Shown piece after piece: positions 2,241 through 50,493 of a DNA stretch of 64,000 nt. Each line of letters starts with the position of its first letter. The first letter of the stretch is position 1. The stretch comes from Roseovarius sp. Pro17 (GTDB lineage: Bacteria; Pseudomonadota; Alphaproteobacteria; Rhodobacterales; Rhodobacteraceae): the NCBI RefSeq assembly GCF_035599575.1, contig NZ_CP141179.1:1488001-1552000 (forward strand), written 5' to 3'. The notes under the pieces were generated by a model. It saw only the letters and a program-made list of their open reading frames with translations. It did no database searches and was not told the DNA's origin. A program made the position numbers and the translations under genes.

Positions 2241-4450
2241 TTCTTGCATTCCCGAACATAGCTTTTGTCCTCGGCGCGGGCACTGAAGCCACGCAGGCCG
2301 ACGGTCAGCGAAAAATCCGTCGACGGTTCAAGGATAGTGGAAGAGGTGAAGCGGCGCGAGGCCGAAAGCGTAACATCAACGCATTCATTCGTATAGGTCA
2401 CGCCAACACCAGCGTTGACGCTGCGATCGCTGGCCATGTTGTAGCGCCATTCGGCGCTGCTGGTCCAGTGTCGCGACAGGCGGTAGGATCCGTCGATCGC
2501 AAATTCCGAGATCGTGCTGGACCGCTGCTCCTGCGGGTCCGCGCGCAACCAGATATAGGTCGCGCCCAGATCCAGCGCGGCGTTGCGCCAACTGGCGCGA
2601 GCCTCGGCCTTGGTGGTGTCGAACGCGCCGTCAAAGAGGCCGCGTGCGGCGAGGGTCAGTCCGTTTGCCGACGCGATCTGGCCAGCGATAAGAACGTCCG
2701 ATGTTTTGCCGCGCAGGCCCGACGACAGCGAAAACGTCTGTCCGCCCGTCGCCTCGCGCTGGGTACGGTCGCGCACGATCTGGCCGAAGCTGAGCGTGCT
2801 GCGCAGCCCGCCCGGTGCGAAGCGCGTCCAGCTGATGCCATAAGCCGCACTCGCCCCCCGCTCGCGCCGATCGGCAGCGGCAAAGCGCGAAAGAGACAAC
2901 AGGTTTCCCTCGTCGAATTCGGTGCGCGTGCTTTCGTCATTGGCGATATAGGGCGTGCTGCCGCCGATCCAGGCCAGCTGCATCAGTGGCTCGATCATGT
3001 GGACGGTGCCGCGCGCGGTGGTTTTTGCCAGCGGATAGCGTAGCGTCAGCGCGGCGCTGGGTGTTGCCTCGGTGATCTGACTGCGCGGCGTGGTGCCAGC
3101 GCCGCTTACGTTGATGTGATCCACCGCGACGCCGGTCTGAACCGCGGCGCGAACACCGCCGCCCAGCGTCCAACTGCGCAGCCAGTCGGCACTGGTGGTC
3201 AGGCGGGCGACATCGCGCCCGTCGGCAAAGAGGTCCACGTCCGGCCCGTCAGTGCGCAGCGAGGACGTGCGGTAGTGCCCATGCGCCTGAGCGGAAAACC
3301 GTAATTCGCCGCCTATGCGGGTGGGAAAGTACCGCTTTTCGTAGTCGAAATTGGCGACGCTGGTTGGCAGGGTCGTGTTGTCCTCGCTCGCGCGCAGAGT
3401 GTGAAAATATGTCAACGCGGCGTGTCGCCACTCATCCCGGCGAACCCGCTCGACCGAGATTTCGCTGTCGAGGCGATCCTTGTTCGAATAACCGTAATCA
3501 ACCAGATAGGCGTCGTCCTTGACCGCCTCTATATGAAAGCGCAGCACGTAGTCCTGAGGCAGGGCGAACACACCACGCCCGAACACATAGGCGCGATTTT
3601 CGCGCCGGGCCAGATCGTCACGGCTGAGCGCGCCCTCGAATTCGATCCCGCCATTGGCGAACGCCTGGCGATAGCGGAACTCCAGCGTGCGCGTCTTGGT
3701 CGTGTAGTAGGGCGTCAGCTTCAGATCCTTGCTGTCGCCGATGCGGATGAAATAGGGCACCTTGACGCCGAACCCGAGCAGCGTCGAATTATAGAGCGAT
3801 GGGGTCAGGAACCCGGTCAGCCGCGTCACCGTCGGATCGGGCAGGCGCAGGCGCGGAAAATAGGCGATAGGCACGTTCCCGACCCGGAACTGCGCGCCAT
3901 CCAGAAATAGCTGCCGCGTCTCGGCGTCATGGATCACGCGGCGCGCGCGGATCTGCCACAGCGGCGCCTTGCCGTCGGCGCAGACTTGGCACGAGGTGAC
4001 GGCTGCTTTGTAGAGCTGTGAATAGCGCCCATCCGTGCGGCTGACCTGATTGGCCGCCAGTTGCAGCTGGTCGTCCATCACGACGCGCGCGCCGGTCAGG
4101 ATACCGTTTTTCAGATCGCGATCCAGTTCGGCGGCGTCCGCGAGAACGACGGTGTAGTTCCCGTCATATAGGGTCACCGGCCCGGTGATCACCAACCGGT
4201 CCGAGGTGCGGTCATAGGTGATGCGCTGCGCCTTGAGGCGCTGGCCGTCATAGACCGCCTCGACATTGCCGCTGGCGATTAGCGTCTTGTCGCCCTCGAT
4301 CAGCACGTCGTCGGCAATCAGTAGCGCGGGGCCCGCGCCGCGCGCAGGCGGGCGGCGCACCTGCGCATCGAGCGCCGCGGGGGCGAGCGCTGTGGCGAGC
4401 AATGGCAGCAAGGCCAGAACCAAGGCAAAGGGGCGAAACCGCAATGTCAT
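2237..4450 (-). CDS. lptD: LPS assembly outer-membrane protein LptD
   Basis: A 737-residue protein with an N-terminal signal sequence (MTLRFRPFALVLALLPLLA), an OstA/LptA-like beta-taco domain at about residues 40-190, then a long beta-barrel region rich in alternating aromatic and polar residues. LptD with LptE inserts lipopolysaccharide into the outer leaflet. Cysteines occur in an early SCQVC motif and near the C-terminus (NEC and REC), compatible with the disulfides LptD needs. The start at 4450 overlaps the lptG stop as ATGA. It is encoded between the inner-membrane LPS transporter subunit and the SurA chaperone, so transport, folding and export partners are co-expressed. Confidence 0.95.
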   Translation of the reverse strand: MTLRFRPFALVLALLPLLATALAPAALDAQVRRPPARGAGPALLIADDVLIEGDKTLIASGNVEAVYDGQRLKAQRITYDRTSDRLVITGPVTLYDGNYTVVLADAAELDRDLKNGILTGARVVMDDQLQLAANQVSRTDGRYSQLYKAAVTSCQVCADGKAPLWQIRARRVIHDAETRQLFLDGAQFRVGNVPIAYFPRLRLPDPTVTRLTGFLTPSLYNSTLLGFGVKVPYFIRIGDSKDLKLTPYYTTKTRTLEFRYRQAFANGGIEFEGALSRDDLARRENRAYVFGRGVFALPQDYVLRFHIEAVKDDAYLVDYGYSNKDRLDSEISVERVRRDEWRHAALTYFHTLRASEDNTTLPTSVANFDYEKRYFPTRIGGELRFSAQAHGHYRTSSLRTDGPDVDLFADGRDVARLTTSADWLRSWTLGGGVRAAVQTGVAVDHINVSGAGTTPRSQITEATPSAALTLRYPLAKTTARGTVHMIEPLMQLAWIGGSTPYIANDESTRTEFDEGNLLSLSRFAAADRRERGASAAYGISWTRFAPGGLRSTLSFGQIVRDRTQREATGGQTFSLSSGLRGKTSDVLIAGQIASANGLTLAARGLFDGAFDTTKAEARASWRNAALDLGATYIWLRADPQEQRSSTISEFAIDGSYRLSRHWTSSAEWRYNMASDRSVNAGVGVTYTNECVDVTLSASRRFTSSTILEPSTDFSLTVGLRGFSARAEDKSYVRECKK

Positions 4451-39196: not shown

Positions 39197-40093
39197 TCAG
39201 AGCGGCCCCTTTGGCTTGGCTTGTCGAAAGGCGTGCCGCGCCAGCCGCTGCTCGCGGATCAGCGTATAGAGGCCCGAGGCGATGATGACCGCCGCGCCGA
39301 TCAGCGTCCATGTATCGGGGCGCTCGCCCAGCAGGCTCATCCCGAGGATCAGCGCAAAGATCAGGCGCGCATATCGAAACGGGGTGACGGCAGCGACCTC
39401 GCCGATGCGCATGGCACCGACGATGAAATAATAGGCCATGACGCCAAACACCATCGCACCCAGAAGGTATGCCCACGCGAGCGGGTCCGGCATCGACGGC
39501 TCTCCGTGGAACATCAGCATCACAGCACCTGTCGGCACCATCGTGCCAAAGGCGTAACAGGACAGCTGCATGGATGACACACTGGTCGGGATCGCACGCG
39601 TCGCCAGATCGCGGATCGCAAGCCCGACGACCGAAATGACGGCAAAGATGGATGAAACGTCGAACGCGTCCAAACCGGGCCGCACGATCATCAACACGCC
39701 GATCAGCCCGACGAGGATCGCCGACCAGCGTCGCCAGCCAACCTGCGCCCCCATAAAGAGCGCGGCCCCCAGCGTCACCGCTAGAGGCGTCGCCTGAAGG
39801 ATCGCCGACACGGTCGACAGGTCCGCCAGCGCCAGCGCGGTGATATAAGTCACGGCTGCGATGATTTCGCCCACGTTGCGCAGTATAACAGGGCGCGTCA
39901 GCAGCACGGGGCTGATGAGGCGCGTGCCCTGGGCGCGCGTGGCGATGGCAAAGGTGACACAGCCCGCCGTGCCCAGCATCATCAATATCTGCCCCACAGG
40001 CATGTTTTCCGACAGCAGTTTGACGAAAAGATCCTCGGCGGCGAAACCGGCCATTGCCACCAGCATCAGAATGCTGCCGCGTAGATTATCCAT
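39197..40093 (-). CDS. DMT superfamily (EamA) transporter
   Basis: A 298-residue inner-membrane protein with ten hydrophobic segments and two EamA repeats; landmarks are MLVAMAGFAAEDLFVKLLSE at the N-terminus and FRYARLIFALILGMSLLGE in the second half. Substrate is unknown; relatives export metabolites or amino acids. It is 23 bp downstream of xth on the same strand. Confidence 0.88.
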   Translation of the reverse strand: MDNLRGSILMLVAMAGFAAEDLFVKLLSENMPVGQILMMLGTAGCVTFAIATRAQGTRLISPVLLTRPVILRNVGEIIAAVTYITALALADLSTVSAILQATPLAVTLGAALFMGAQVGWRRWSAILVGLIGVLMIVRPGLDAFDVSSIFAVISVVGLAIRDLATRAIPTSVSSMQLSCYAFGTMVPTGAVMLMFHGEPSMPDPLAWAYLLGAMVFGVMAYYFIVGAMRIGEVAAVTPFRYARLIFALILGMSLLGERPDTWTLIGAAVIIASGLYTLIREQRLARHAFRQAKPKGPL

Positions 40094-40116
40094 GAGTTTG
40101 CCCTTTCCGGGGGTGA

Positions 40117-40899
40117 TCAGGCGCGCAGGCGCACCCAGACAGGCACATGATCCGACGGCTTTTCACGCGCGCGGATTTCACGGTCGATCTGGCAGTCCTC
40201 CAGCATATCAGCGCAGGCGGGGCTGAGCAGGAAATGATCGATGCGAATGCCATCGTCCTTGTTCCATGCCCCCGCCTGATAATCCCAGAAGCTGTAGTGA
40301 CCGGGCCCTTGGGTCCGGGCGCGGAACGCCTCGGTAAAGCCCATGTTTAGCAGACGGCGAAAGGCCGCACGCGTTTCGGGGCGGGCCAACGCGTCCTCCT
40401 GCCATGCCTCGGGGCGTTTGGCGTCCTCGTCTTGCGGGATCACGTTATAGTCGCCCGCCATCAGGAACGGCTCTTCCAGCGCCAGCAGCTCGGCGGCGCG
40501 GGTTTGCATCCGCTCCATCCACGACAGTTTGTAATCGTATTTCGGCCCCGGCACCGGGTTGCCATTGGGCAGGTATAGGCCGCAGACGCGCAGCGCCGTC
40601 TGATCGCCGATCACGGTGGCCTCAATCCAGCGGGCCTGTTCGTCACTTTCGTCGCCGGGCAGGCCGCGCGTGACGTCCTCAAGGGGCAGTTTCGACAGGA
40701 TCGCAACCCCGTTAAAACCCTTTTGCCCATGTGTTTCGACGGTATAGCCGCAATCCTCGAAAATTTCGCGCGGGAATGCCTCATCGACCGATTTAATCTC
40801 TTGCAGCAGCACGACGTCGGCCTCCGACTCGTCCAGCCAATCGGGCAGGGCGTTTATCCGAGCCTTGATGCCGTTGATGTTGAACGTCGCAACTTTCAT
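40117..40899 (-). CDS. xth: exodeoxyribonuclease III
   Basis: A 260-residue AP endonuclease starting MKVATFNINGIKARI. VVLLQEIKSVDEAFP carries the metal-binding glutamate, LMAGDYNVIPQDEDA the catalytic aspartate-asparagine region, and RIDHFLLSPA with SDHVPVWV the C-terminal histidine site. The enzyme cuts abasic sites in base-excision repair. The start at 40899 replaces a longer open frame that lacks family sequence. Confidence 0.96.
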   Translation of the reverse strand: MKVATFNINGIKARINALPDWLDESEADVVLLQEIKSVDEAFPREIFEDCGYTVETHGQKGFNGVAILSKLPLEDVTRGLPGDESDEQARWIEATVIGDQTALRVCGLYLPNGNPVPGPKYDYKLSWMERMQTRAAELLALEEPFLMAGDYNVIPQDEDAKRPEAWQEDALARPETRAAFRRLLNMGFTEAFRARTQGPGHYSFWDYQAGAWNKDDGIRIDHFLLSPACADMLEDCQIDREIRAREKPSDHVPVWVRLRA

Positions 40900-41301
40900 C
40901 TGCCGGTCCTCGCAAGGTTGGGGCGGGATTGGGTATAGCTCCCCTCTATCGCGCAGCTCTGCGGCAGGGGCAAGTCGCAGGGTGCGCCTTGTCGCGAATC
41001 GCACCCCCGAATCCGACAGAGGTGAGTCGCCTCTTCCGATCCATAAAAACTGGCAAACACGTTAAAGTTGTGGATGAAACGGCTGTTTCTCAGACAGAAA
41101 CAGGGGCAAAATCACGTCAAAAACACCTGTGGATAAGTTTTTTTGGCCTCCGAAATTCATCAAGAGTCAGTGCACCTTACACCCCGTTCTTGACCTCGTT
41201 TTTGAACCCTTGCTCGCCTTTAGGTTGAAATTTTCCTTGGCAGTTTCGCCACAAGCTGCAAGCCTCTGGGGGTCAACAACATCAATCTGGGGATTACGAA
41301 A
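40900..41301. other. 402-bp intergenic region between xth and the repeat-protein gene
   Basis: Divergent promoter space. It contains a hairpin CTGTTTCT (41083-41090) and AGAAACAG (41096-41103) with a 5-nt loop, and one perfect DnaA-box sequence TGTGGATAA (41128-41136), with a near match TGTGGATGA about 60 bp before it. AGAGG at 41018-41022 pairs with CCTCT at 41030-41034. No open frame with family sequence was seen on either strand. Confidence 0.5.
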
Positions 41302-41955
41302 ATGACAGCTCAACGCAAAACAGAACTCACCTTCGCCGCCGCTCAAAGCACGCGCACTCACAACCTGCATGACGGCGTCGCGACAGAAATGTTCACCTCG
41401 TCCATGGCACCGGTTGCTGCTGCCGATGCTGGCCTGGGCGAAGGTCTCGAAATGTTCACGTCGTCGATGGCGCCGACCCTGCGCAGCGATGCATCGGCTG
41501 GTGACAGCGTCGAGATGTTCACCTCATCCATGGCGCCCTCGATGCGCAGCGAGGCGGCCGCAGGCGACAATGTTGAAATGTTCACCTCGTCGATGAGCCC
41601 GTCGGCCCGCGCCGATGCCTCTGTCGGCGACAACGTCCAGATGTTCACATCCTCGATGGCCCCTTCGGCCCACACTGACGCCAGCGCCGGTGACAATGTC
41701 GAAATGTTCACGTCCTCAATGAGCCCCTCGGCCCGTACTGATGCATCTGCCGGCGACAACGTCGAGATGTTCACCTCCTCGATGGGCCCTTCGATCACTG
41801 CCGATGCGACCGCGGGTGACAACGTTCAGATGTTCACGTCGTCGATGGCACCTGTCGCGGTTGGCGAGGCAGTGGGCGCATTCACCTCCTCGATGACGCC
41901 TATCGGCGAAGCGCGCGAAGGCGACGCTGTCGAAATGTTCACCTCGAGCATGTAA
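41302..41955 (+). CDS. MFTSSM tandem-repeat protein, unknown function
   Basis: A 217-residue protein. A 29-residue N-terminal part (MTAQRKTELTFAAAQSTRTH and on) has no signal peptide. The rest is ten copies of MFTSSM (one AFTSSM), linked by acidic spacers such as DASAGDNVE; seven intervals are exactly 21 residues, the last two 16 and 19. The protein ends exactly at the tenth MFTSSM. No cysteine is present. GGGGA lies about ten bases before the ATG. It is followed by an uncharacterised helical protein and an EamA exporter on the same strand. Multi-core peptide precursor, methionine-based redox or metal binder, and scaffold are all open. Confidence 0.9.
   Translation: MTAQRKTELTFAAAQSTRTHNLHDGVATEMFTSSMAPVAAADAGLGEGLEMFTSSMAPTLRSDASAGDSVEMFTSSMAPSMRSEAAAGDNVEMFTSSMSPSARADASVGDNVQMFTSSMAPSAHTDASAGDNVEMFTSSMSPSARTDASAGDNVEMFTSSMGPSITADATAGDNVQMFTSSMAPVAVGEAVGAFTSSMTPIGEAREGDAVEMFTSSM
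41389..41952 (+). repeat. ten-copy coding repeat with a mostly 63-bp period
   Basis: Copies begin at 41389, 41452, 41515, 41578, 41641, 41704, 41767, 41830, 41878 and 41935. The first eight are 63 bp apart; the last two intervals are 48 and 57 bp. The hexapeptide is spelled with varied serine and threonine codons (TCG, TCC, TCA, AGC; ACC, ACG, ACA), so the array is old and kept at the protein level, not a recent expansion. Confidence 0.95.
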
Positions 41956-42011
41956 TCGCAGCGCTTGAACGGGGCCTCGGGTCCGGACCTTTTGAAATGG
42001 AGATCACCAAA

Positions 42012-43100
42012 ATGACCACCATCGTCCAACTCGACGTCCCGTTCCGGCAGCACAGCAAGGCCGCGCGCCAAGCGGCCTTGCTCAAGACCTTTGCGCAAGG
42101 ACGGCGCACGCAGGAGGATGTTTTCTGGCTCAAGGAAAACGCCGAAATGCTGAACATCCTTGAATCCACCGGCGCCGACATGGCCCCCGGTGCACTGTCC
42201 GCCTATCAGTCATTTTACGACGAAATCGAGCAGCGGATGGAATTCTTTCCGCAGTATTACCGCTTTTTGCTGTCGATTTGCCTCGACCTCGAAGACCTCG
42301 GGATGCAGGGCGGCAAGGGCGCGGCACTGACCGAATGGATTGCCCACCAAGGGCTGGCCGACGCGGAGCTGTCGGATCTGCAACGCGCCGAGGCACGACG
42401 CCTTTGCGCACGGCGCGGCGTCGATCCGCTGCCCGGCGATACCGGCCTTGATGCACGTCTGCGTGGCTTCGCCGCGCGGTCGCACACCTTCACGATGCCA
42501 AACAAGAAGGCGGCGTATGAACTGACGCATATTGTGTTCTATCTGTCCGAATATGGCCGCACCGATCCGCATCTGGACGATGCCGCTCAGCGCAGCCTGA
42601 TGTTTGCCGGCACGTTGGCCTTCCTCGATTTCAATGCCGATCTGCTGGCCGAAATCTGCTTGGCGCTGCGTTTCGCCGGGATGGAAGCGCCCGAAGTCTG
42701 GGAAATCTGGCTGACCCAACAGATCCGCACCTTTGCGCTGGAGGACGGGGACGGATTTCAGGACGACTACCACGAATATCTCATGCTGAACTGGTTCATG
42801 ACCCGCGCGGGGCAGGGTGGTTTCGGCGATCATGTGCCTGAGGGGCGGCTGACATTTGCACGCACGCGGCCCAGATCTGCGCCGCTGCGCGAGTTGTCGC
42901 AGTGCATTTACTCAATGGGCCATGCCCGTTCTGCCGATTGGGAGGCCATGCGCGGCGAAGTCGCAGCGCAGGTCTCGGACGAGGCGCAGGCGGCGCTGAT
43001 CGCCGCCGAGGCATCGACCGATCAATTTGCCGCATTTTTTGAGGGTTTCGCGCGTGTCGGCCTGCGCGGCGGGGTGCCTTCCATGGGGGCTGCACAATGA
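42012..43100 (+). CDS. all-helical protein of unknown function, DUF6902-like
   Basis: A 362-residue soluble protein. Landmarks: YRFLLSICLDLEDLGM, HTFTMPNKKAAYELTHIVFYLSEYGR, LDFNADLLAEICLALRF, WEIWLTQQIRTFALEDGDGF and YHEYLMLNWFM. Predominantly alpha-helical with conserved tryptophans and acidic residues; no nucleotide-binding loop, metal motif, or known enzyme signature was seen. I recall the family label DUF6902 from memory only. The ATG at 42012 is preferred over one at 41997 because GGAG lies nine bases before it. It is 56 bp downstream of the repeat gene and overlaps the transporter (ATGA). Confidence 0.85.
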   Translation: MTTIVQLDVPFRQHSKAARQAALLKTFAQGRRTQEDVFWLKENAEMLNILESTGADMAPGALSAYQSFYDEIEQRMEFFPQYYRFLLSICLDLEDLGMQGGKGAALTEWIAHQGLADAELSDLQRAEARRLCARRGVDPLPGDTGLDARLRGFAARSHTFTMPNKKAAYELTHIVFYLSEYGRTDPHLDDAAQRSLMFAGTLAFLDFNADLLAEICLALRFAGMEAPEVWEIWLTQQIRTFALEDGDGFQDDYHEYLMLNWFMTRAGQGGFGDHVPEGRLTFARTRPRSAPLRELSQCIYSMGHARSADWEAMRGEVAAQVSDEAQAALIAAEASTDQFAAFFEGFARVGLRGGVPSMGAAQ

Positions 43101-44005
43101 TCGCTGCGCGCGCTGCGGGTGCGACCATTCTGACCGGTGTCGGGCTGACGGTGATCTATACCGCGCTCATTTCCAGCGCCGATGCCATCACCAAAATGTT
43201 CGCGGCAAGCTATGCGGCGCCGCAGCTTTTCGCGTTGTCGGGTGGCATCGTTGCGCTGCTGGCGGTGTTGTTCAATCGCGCGGGACCGACGCCGCGCGGC
43301 GTCGCCACGACCTGTCCGCGCGCCATGGCGCTGCGTAGCGGGGCGACCGTGCTAGGGGCGGCTGCATTTTTCTATGCGTTCCGCCTTTTGCCGTTTGCCG
43401 AGGTGTTTCTCTTTATTGCGATGATCCCGCTGATCACGGCGCTTTTGTCCGGCCCGGTGCTGGGCGAAATGGTGCGCCCACAGGCGTGGGGCGCGGTAAT
43501 GCTGGGCATCGTCGGCCTCTTGTGCCTCGCGCCCGGTGGGTTTCAGTCATTGGGTCTTGGCCATGCGGTGGCGCTGGCCGCGGTGCTTTTGGGCACGGTG
43601 TCCATGATGGCATCGCGCTATATCGGAGTGCGCGACGGCAACCTCTTGGCGCAAGTATTCTGGCCAAATCTTGCGTTGGGGGCCGTCAGTGCCTGCGCGC
43701 TGCCCTTTTTCTGGGCACCGATGGGGTTGGTCGATTTGGGCTGGGCCACACTATATGCTGGTCTGCTGTTCGGCGCACGTTGGGTGCTGGTGGCAGCGTT
43801 CAAGGCGCTGCCTGCATATGTGATCACACCGCTGATGAACCTGCAATTCCTGTGGATGGTCATCATTGGCGCTGCCGTCTTTGGCGAGGTGCCGGGACCG
43901 GCGCTTTACCTTGGGGCGGCTCTGGTGATCACGGCGGGGGCGTGGCTGATCTATGATCAGGCATTTCCGGGCGGGCAGTCGCGCAAGTTGATTCCAGCTG
44001 AGTGA
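43097..44005 (+). CDS. DMT superfamily (EamA) transporter coupled to the repeat-protein cassette
   Basis: A 302-residue protein with ten hydrophobic segments in two EamA repeats (TVIYTALISSADAITKMFAA; FYAFRLLPFAEVFLFIAMIPL; VITPLMNLQFLWMVIIGA). Its ATG overlaps the upstream stop (ATGA), so translation is coupled. Substrate unknown; placement suggests it acts with the repeat protein and the helical protein, for example in exporting a product. It is distinct from the EamA gene at 39197. Confidence 0.88.
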   Translation: MIAARAAGATILTGVGLTVIYTALISSADAITKMFAASYAAPQLFALSGGIVALLAVLFNRAGPTPRGVATTCPRAMALRSGATVLGAAAFFYAFRLLPFAEVFLFIAMIPLITALLSGPVLGEMVRPQAWGAVMLGIVGLLCLAPGGFQSLGLGHAVALAAVLLGTVSMMASRYIGVRDGNLLAQVFWPNLALGAVSACALPFFWAPMGLVDLGWATLYAGLLFGARWVLVAAFKALPAYVITPLMNLQFLWMVIIGAAVFGEVPGPALYLGAALVITAGAWLIYDQAFPGGQSRKLIPAE

Positions 44006-44040
44006 TGTTTGGAATTAGGAGCGCACCGTAACACCCTGTG

Positions 44041-44364
44041 TTACATCGAAAAAGATGTTCCGCATCCACAGCTGCTGCTGGCGTTCGGATTTTCGATGAC
44101 AAACCGCGCGCCGATCAACTCTTCGCTAAAGTCGATGACCGCACCTGTCAGGAATGGCAGTGACATAGCGTCCACAACGACCCTCTGCCCTTGTCCCTCC
44201 AGCACCAGATCGTCGTCGGCAGGCATGTCCAGCTTGATCTCATACTGAAAGCCCGAGCATCCACCGCCCTCGACGGCGACGCGCAGGGCCTGTCCCTTAT
44301 CGCCTGCGCCGATTTCGCTCAGACGCTCGAATGCGCGGTCGGTGACTGTGGGTGGCAAATTCAT
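44041..44364 (-). CDS. iron-sulfur cluster assembly accessory protein (HesB/IscA/ErpA type)
   Basis: A 107-residue A-type carrier. GGGCSGFQYEIKLD and NASSSCGCGTSFSM hold the three conserved cysteines (one, then CGC). The start at 44364 (MNLPPTVTD) fits family length; an upstream extension lacks homology. It inserts or transfers 2Fe-2S or 4Fe-4S clusters to targets. Divergent from dgt with 90 bp between. Confidence 0.93.
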   Translation of the reverse strand: MNLPPTVTDRAFERLSEIGAGDKGQALRVAVEGGGCSGFQYEIKLDMPADDDLVLEGQGQRVVVDAMSLPFLTGAVIDFSEELIGARFVIENPNASSSCGCGTSFSM

Positions 44365-49413: not shown

Positions 49414-50493
49414 ATGGCAGATTTTCATGCACAAGAGGCCGCAAGCGGGCGGGCGGACGACGCAACCGGTGGCGCTTATGGCAGCGCGCAAACTGCGCCG
49501 CGATGGGATGACGGTAAGGCGCAAAATCCTTTGTCACGCGCCACTTACGCGATTGGTTCGATTGTGTCGGTCGGTTTAGTGATCGGCCTTGGGGTCTGGG
49601 GGTACAAGCTCCTCGTGCGCGACGTGAGCGGTGTGCCTGTGATCCGCGCCGCCGAAGGACCGATGCGCATCCAGCCCGAAGATCCGGGAGGGCGGCAGAC
49701 CCTCAACCAGGGCTTGTCTGTCAACGCGGTCGCCGCCGTCGGCACCGCTGGCAATGCCCCGGATGAGCTGATCCTCGCCCCCGCGCCGCTTAACCTGAGC
49801 GAAGACGACGCGCCGACTGCCGCGCCCCAACGCGTGCAGCAGGCCCTCGCCGAGACTGCTGACGCCTCCGAGACCCCTGAAGCCGAGGTGCAGCAGGATA
49901 TCGAACCCGCTGAGCCCGAAATTGCTGCTTCAGAAATTGCTGCTTCAGAAACTGCCGTGCCGGAAACTGCTGAGCCCAAAACCGAGGCCGTTTCCGACGA
50001 CATGCTTGCCCTCGCCGAGGCCATAAGCCAAGGGATTACCCCCATGGCTGCGCTGGAGGACGCCCCAAACTCCCCTCTGCCCGACGCCGACGCCGACGCC
50101 GAAGAAGCAGAGCAGCCCATGGGCGGCATCGCCACCTCACTGAGGCCCCGCGCGCGCCCTGCCGATCTGAGCAACATCCGTCAGGTCTCGGCAAGCGGGG
50201 CTGGCGCTGGAGTGCGCGACGTCGATCCCGAGTCAATCGCCACCGGTACACGCCTTGCGCAATTGGGCGCCTTTGCCAGCGAAGAGATAGCGAACGAGGA
50301 ATGGAGCCGCCTTGGCGCGCGCTTTGAGGAATATCTTGCAGACAAGGATCGTGTGATCCAAAAGGCGACCAGCGGCGGGCGCACATTCTATCGCCTGCGC
50401 GCGATGGGGTTTGATGATCTGGCAGATGCCCGGCGCTTCTGCTCAGCCCTTGTTGCTGAAAAAGCCGAATGTATACCGGTCGTTACGCGGTAA
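49414..50493 (+). CDS. SPOR domain cell-division-type protein
   Basis: A 359-residue protein with a cytoplasmic N-terminus, one membrane helix near residues 47-66 (YAIGSIVSVGLVIGLGVWGY), a long low-complexity alanine-, glutamate- and proline-rich linker, and a C-terminal SPOR domain (TRLAQLGAFASEEIANEEWSRL, TFYRLRAMGFDDLADARRFC). SPOR domains bind denuded glycan at the septum. It precedes nagZ, consistent with a peptidoglycan role. The linker contains a 15-bp tandem duplication. Confidence 0.9.
   Translation: MADFHAQEAASGRADDATGGAYGSAQTAPRWDDGKAQNPLSRATYAIGSIVSVGLVIGLGVWGYKLLVRDVSGVPVIRAAEGPMRIQPEDPGGRQTLNQGLSVNAVAAVGTAGNAPDELILAPAPLNLSEDDAPTAAPQRVQQALAETADASETPEAEVQQDIEPAEPEIAASEIAASETAVPETAEPKTEAVSDDMLALAEAISQGITPMAALEDAPNSPLPDADADAEEAEQPMGGIATSLRPRARPADLSNIRQVSASGAGAGVRDVDPESIATGTRLAQLGAFASEEIANEEWSRLGARFEEYLADKDRVIQKATSGGRTFYRLRAMGFDDLADARRFCSALVAEKAECIPVVTR
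49921..49950 (+). repeat. 15-bp tandem duplication in the SPOR linker
   Basis: The unit ATTGCTGCTTCAGAA is repeated exactly at 49921-49935 and 49936-49950, encoding IAASE twice. A third diverged unit follows (ACTGCCGTGCCGGAA). Confidence 0.85.

Follow-up and report, generated by a model that had tools for sequence, protein, structure and literature searches.

We analyzed a three-gene cluster in a 64-kb stretch of the Roseovarius sp. Pro17 genome (NZ_CP141179.1, positions 1,488,001–1,552,000; genome size 4.24 Mb), hereafter the window. The cluster encodes a repeat protein with ten short cores, a helical protein of the family DUF6902, and an EamA-type transporter (Table 1). The first two very probably represent a precursor and its modifying enzyme. 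For the cluster as a whole, we lean toward an operon for a ribosomally synthesized and post-translationally modified peptide (RiPP), in which DUF6902 would epimerize a multi-core precursor. As expected for a RiPP system, an encoded precursor with a leader-like start and cores lies beside a dedicated partner gene, as judged from architecture, selection, and co-occurrence.

An earlier, sequence-only reading of this DNA had described a 217-residue protein with ten copies of MFTSSM, eight of them at a 63-bp period, and an EamA gene joined to its upstream neighbor by ATGA, all of which was confirmed on the sequence. Nine cores read MFTSSM and one AFTSSM, and the stop codon directly follows the tenth copy. 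A codon pattern for MFTSSM with TCN serines, blind to the AFTSSM copy and to the last copy with its AGC serine, gave eight matches at an exact 63-bp period, eight forward and none reverse, and none elsewhere in the 4.24-Mb genome; the reversed control pattern gave 0 matches. The DUF6902 gene probably starts at the ATG at 42012, 56 bp past the repeat-gene stop (41955), and an earlier in-frame ATG lies at 41997. The stop codon of this gene and the start codon of EamA overlap in the ATGA at 43097. No credible family was found for the repeat protein in Pfam, NCBIfam, PADLOC, or PHROGs. The rejected candidates were NCBIfam NF002919 (1.6e-6, but 27.8 bits where the cut-off is 482), phrog_5187 (3e-4, with no matched stretch), and Pfam matches, all under cut-off. 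A large protein search with the repeat protein returned three proteins, two of them fused to unrelated domains. These two, P0001 and P0003, combine FTSSM repeats with an oxidase domain (PF02913) and with CobT (PF06213). Their contigs measure 778 and 1457 bp, and the proteins are perhaps assembly chimeras formed at repeats.

DUF6902 was found in 108 of 394 genomes of the window's family (393 genera sampled, 107 positive); in the class, 3 of 240 genomes had it, each from that same family. Within the window's genus, 18 of 36 genomes (its own included) scored above the cut-off, against 0 of 24 genomes outside the genus, where G038 had a sub-cut-off match. The closest named relatives of the window protein belong to Roseovarius (87%–89% identity). 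A repeat profile, A3, was built from 16 DUF6902-linked repeat proteins and would miss unlike repeats; it matched 99 of the 394 family genomes, all among the 108 DUF6902 carriers (Fisher 3e-83, genomes treated as independent). The sequence-only reading had tied the repeat protein to the helical one and named repeat proteins lacking this partner as evidence to the contrary; by this DUF6902-derived profile, all 99 matched genomes carry the partner. The nine DUF6902 genomes without an A3 match comprise six with divergent cores in 2–8 copies, one (G198) that is a fragment at a contig end, and two (G346, locus L116; G098, locus L133) in which no repeat gene was found. Two overlapping sets, 80 survey loci and 80 named-genome loci, were used for closer comparison; at least two similar cores were found by script upstream of DUF6902 in 80 of the 80 named-genome loci. 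Genome G112 has, besides the DUF6902-adjacent match, a repeat-protein match on another contig (C31:27412–27729), either an additional precursor gene or the result of a split assembly. Among the related genera surveyed, roughly one in four has the gene pair, usually with its own core version, which suggests a widespread, undescribed peptide product. In the open-licence literature of PubMed Central (PMC), no paper with DUF6902, the name DUF6749, or MFTSSM was found, and among the matches listed for DUF6895, FxSxx-COOH, multicore RiPP, epimerase, DnaA, and EamA with RiPP, the system was undescribed.

Core statistics cover 75 of the 80 survey loci, since the script called no cores in L082 (masked), L090 (contig edge), L116, L128, and L133; A3 does match the genomes of L082, L090, and L128 (G249, G309, and G257), which reduces the loci lacking repeats to two. 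The data had been inspected before the core pattern, the box motif, and the residues were selected. The 75 loci contain 41 kinds of five-residue cores in 2–20 copies per locus (median 7), mostly spaced by 20–21 residues (388 of 434 intervals), and in 47 loci the last core ends at the stop codon. Phenylalanine is present in the core in 67 loci, followed by small or polar residues, with serine third in 58; MMCCS, MPTSN, YIAGL, and AQSFS fall outside F-x-S-x-x. The MFTSSM core of the sequence-only reading is real in the window but lineage specific. All counted copies are identical in 53 of the 75 loci, and mean core identity is 0.97 within loci versus 0.48 between them, for copies counted only if at least four of six positions agree, a rule that inflates the within-locus value.

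The core copies are old and kept alike by selection, rather than being a mere recent expansion, because their silent sites have diverged while core amino acids are unchanged. In the window, the cores have silent divergence (pS) of 0.54 and no amino acid change, the nonsilent value (pN) of 0.04 stemming from the path between TCN and AGC serine codons; pN of the flanks is 0.32. Across the 61 loci with at least four copies, pS and pN are 0.55 and 0.056 in cores and 0.61 and 0.35 in flanks. Every counted copy reads FTSSM in the window, L138, and L145, and FTSSL in L139–L143. The last copy in the window and L138–L142 retains the AGC serine codon and the spacer AREGDAVE; therefore, position five differs in all copies without overwriting of whole cores. 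Such an all-copy difference is expected if every copy must yield one product, and small conversion tracts may be an alternative source of the uniform position. If the switch reflects matching to a receptor or enzyme, these loci would offer a test bed for species-specific peptide signaling. A DUF6902 tree was dropped as evidence: its 49 changes of core label compare with a minimum of 40 for 41 kinds, and support was weak for 31 of the 73 inner branches.

The window protein matches DUF6902 (PF21843) with 535 bits (cut-off 27) over model positions 1–351 of 351 and, partially, DUF6895 (PF21836) with 71.9 bits (cut-off 23.8; positions 10–229 of 289). It is a DUF6902 member that also exceeds the DUF6895 threshold. 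The former statement that no known modifying enzyme is adjacent is thereby superseded. According to the title of a paper (Shi et al., ACS Catal 2026) cited in a 2026 review (PMC13352647), the DUF6895 family holds a lasso-peptide epimerase. The window protein carries the conserved LS/TH, D, E, and YH residues of DUF6895: H173, D210, E214, and H254 are common to it and three DUF6895 proteins from other families (16%–21% identity, none known to be the published epimerase). In a 14-row DUF6895 alignment, whose first row approximates the L218 protein, the first three of these positions never vary, and the fourth is conserved in every row but one, which lacks its end. Judging by this conservation, the residue set would be catalytic. 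The cluster differs from a lasso-peptide system in that no lasso-peptide genes occur among the six window proteins scanned (39197–44364), and DUF6902 would act on a linear repeat protein carrying as many as 20 cores.

H173 and D210 are each kept in 159 of 161 DUF6902 rows, which are nonindependent since the genome sets overlap. The exceptions at both positions are L116 and L133, the same two loci for which no repeat gene was found and in which an adjacent EamA relative and any exact copy of the box described below were likewise not found; these DUF6902 relatives are possibly a decayed or repurposed form. H254 is missing in L133 and L151; the reading of L151 contains a stop, and it was therefore omitted from set A2. 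The predicted DUF6902 model is helical and toroid-like. A PDB search with the DUF6902 sequence found no match (best E 0.08), and no sugar epimerase was among the 50 matches listed for the model.

DUF6895 itself is rare outside the window's family: it exceeded the cut-off in 6 of 299 phylum genomes, four of them in that family, and among kin of the two other carriers in 1 of 120 and 1 of 150 genomes, each being the carrier itself. Two weaker matches were L224 and L225. In L218 (whose DUF6895 protein is that of Rhizobium sp. CF122), L219 (outside the class), and L019 (another alphaproteobacterial family), one or two small open reading frames (ORFs) with a Trp-containing motif near the end lie just upstream of DUF6895. 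They are located at 751–951 and 1093–1350 in L218, 2407–2838 (minus strand) in L219, and 2340–2576 (minus strand) in L019, with a motif like LVGPWFVL, in two copies in L219. These ORFs could possibly encode substrates of another type, and the enzyme superfamily may tend to adjoin small peptide genes, three loci being few.

In the proposed pathway, the repeat protein would serve as the precursor, with a single leader-like start followed by ten short cores, FTSSM in the window. DUF6902 would recognize the repeats and modify each core. The likeliest reaction, which we favor by a modest degree, would be epimerization of one or more core residues, with two conserved histidines and an Asp/Glu pair inside an alpha/alpha toroid removing and returning the C-alpha proton. 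The modified cores would then be excised by a protease encoded outside the operon, and EamA would export the small product in most strains.

Multi-core RiPP precursors, such as those of cyanobactins, plesiocin-type graspetides, and fungal dikaritins, carry short cores between spacers behind one leader. The window precursor likewise repeats short cores and spacers after one leader-like start, but DUF6902-linked precursors have up to 20 like cores, and no ATP-grasp, YcaO, or protease is among the six proteins scanned. The proposed mechanism resembles that of MslH, the metal-dependent peptide epimerase of MS-271, which, according to PMC10406935, acts at C-alpha with two His/Asp pairs; MslH differs in its calcineurin-like fold, as opposed to the helical toroid-like model of DUF6902, and in acting on one C-terminal Trp.

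The same precursor and partner could also be joined by another reaction, with DUF6902 catalyzing cyclization, oxidation, or group transfer. The alpha/alpha toroid also occurs in LanC-like cyclases, terpene cyclases, and prenyltransferases; however, DUF6902 is linked by family to a named peptide epimerase, and cores such as FSSGS and FTSSM have no Cys for thioethers, leaving this alternative unlikely but worth serious consideration.

Three points weigh against processing of any kind: the operon contains no protease, no product is known, and the regular core spacing could suit an unprocessed scaffold. The motif would then bind DUF6902, which would act as a sensor, chaperone, or titrated regulator. 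We regard this as improbable, given the His/Asp/Glu set in common with a family named as an enzyme, the quite different small ORFs beside DUF6895 genes, and the range of copy number, which is odd for a fixed scaffold.

Radical S-adenosylmethionine (SAM) enzymes cross-link the core of FxSxx-COOH precursors, and a radical SAM enzyme encoded elsewhere could produce such a triceptide here. Many cores fit F-x-S-x-x, and the last often ends at the stop codon, but cores such as the MMCCS, MPTSN, YIAGL, and AQSFS listed above do not fit, and neither the radical SAM enzyme nor the zincin peptidase of those systems is among the six proteins scanned, more distant genes not having been searched. We therefore consider a triceptide very unlikely. 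The C-terminal F-x-S-x-x motif is shared with the FxSxx-COOH precursors of PMC7159879, from which DUF6902-linked precursors differ in having many motif copies. Finally, a selfish or phase-variable tandem repeat without a product, kept by slippage, would explain the differing copy number among close relatives (10 in the window, 9 in L138, and 6–7 in L139–L142), but can practically be dismissed given the silent change at unchanged core amino acids, the nesting of repeat carriers in DUF6902 genomes, and the promoter sites.

The window transporter belongs to EamA (PF00892, 36.8 bits against a cut-off of 28.2, in two stretches). An EamA relative adjoins DUF6902 in 63 of 80 survey loci and lies directly downstream of it in 75 of 80 named-genome loci, three of the five misses having less than 2 kb of DNA left. 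The sequence-only reading had made EamA the third partner; it is the usual neighbor of DUF6902, but dispensable. It may export the product, an assignment we hold with some doubt. The EamA/DMT (drug/metabolite transporter) members named in PMC11005379 export single amino acids and similar metabolites; by analogy, EamA would suit a small product, while export of peptides is not established there.

The promoter region of the repeat gene contains two sites resembling TGTGGATAA, which matches the DnaA-box consensus; the second is the sole exact copy on both strands of the window. Counting either strand, the 22.4 kb upstream of the 75 repeat genes contain 69 copies of TGTGGATAA versus 10 in the other 945 kb of the same loci, a roughly 290-fold higher density in a comparison unmatched for base composition. 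A slightly looser motif was found in 49 of 75 loci against a mean of 0.275 in shuffled upstream stretches. The exact box is present in 43 of 75 survey loci and 44 of 80 named-genome loci, with none in Shimia rows of the named set. In 44 box pairs with at most one mismatch, the starts are 75–78 bp apart in 20, 52–54 bp in 10, 87–90 bp in 5, 64–65 bp in 2, and at most 49 bp in 7 (spacings of 11–26 and 49 bp). The window pair, with starts 59 bp apart and one mismatch, is outside both common spacings. Phasing by helical turns (53, 64–65, 76, and 87–90 bp) is suspected. Exact pairs with a gap of 40–70 bp occur at 17 places in 149 family genomes, 11 just upstream of a repeat gene as judged by coordinates and 6 elsewhere, and the reversed pattern gave one match. 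Genome G000 has no exact pair, and its single boxes (21 versus 23 for the reversed pattern) show no genome-wide excess. The sites, often paired, suggest control by DnaA or another protein with that site. According to PMC11317965, the pairs favored by E. coli DnaA are 2–3 bp apart, unlike most pairs here.

Assignment of the boxes to the neighboring exonuclease-like gene was disfavored, as the 13 kb fetched for L116 and for L133 contain no exact box; at the six places where paired boxes lie apart from a precursor, inspection of ORF starts by eye, with no family scan, revealed no exonuclease-like gene. Separately, seven exact TGTGGATAA-type boxes lie in about 560 bp of L235 (G135:C18, 1922–2479) beside a gene that looks LysR-like by eye, possibly a DnaA-binding cluster.

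If the favored reading is true, this would be a very simple new RiPP type (one precursor, one enzyme, and often one exporter) in a large marine group, DUF6902 would gain a function, precursors with so many identical cores would lend themselves naturally to studies of peptide epimerization, and the box pairs would open a possible tie between peptide production and the cell cycle to direct testing. A more far-reaching proposal, which we put forward only tentatively and think rather unlikely in full, is an undescribed, widespread ribosomal peptide class in about a quarter of the surveyed genera, with 2–20 copies per precursor yielding a short, lineage-specific D-residue peptide, all copies changing together, and often paired DnaA-type boxes. 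Such a class would fit a species-specific signal or recognition peptide made in step with the replication cycle.

Table 1. Features of the gene cluster and its upstream region (window positions)
Feature	Position	Strand	Basis or remark
DnaA-box-like site 1, TGTGGATGA, one mismatch to TGTGGATAA	41069..41077	+	Motif match
DnaA-box-like site 2, TGTGGATAA, exact	41128..41136	+	Motif match
Multi-core precursor-like repeat protein, 217 aa	41302..41955	+	ORF reading; A3 profile match; core selection
Leader-like start, 29 residues (MTAQRK...)	41302..41388	+	Translation; many relatives have similar starts
Ten FTSSM cores	41389..41952	+	Spacers often end in G[DE]xV[EQ]
Core starts	41389, 41452, 41515, 41578, 41641, 41704, 41767, 41830, 41878 (AFTSSM), 41935	+	
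DUF6902 protein, 362 aa	42012..43100	+	Pfam PF21843 and PF21836 matches; structure model
Codon of H173 (LTH motif)	42528..42530	+	Conserved; proposed catalytic residue
Codons of D210 to E214 (DLLAE)	42639..42653	+	Conserved; proposed catalytic acids
Codon of H254 (YH motif)	42771..42773	+	Conserved; proposed catalytic residue
EamA-type transporter, ATGA-coupled	43097..44005	+	PF00892 match; proposed exporter of small product

The six proteins scanned were the repeat protein, DUF6902, two EamA proteins, an exonuclease/phosphatase-family protein, and an Fe-S_biosyn protein. The second EamA-type transporter gene is located at 39197–40093 on the minus strand, about 1.2 kb before the repeat gene and past the exonuclease-like gene. 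Elsewhere in the window, a 15-bp tandem repeat of 4.5 copies (49909–49976) lies within the ORF at 49414–50493.
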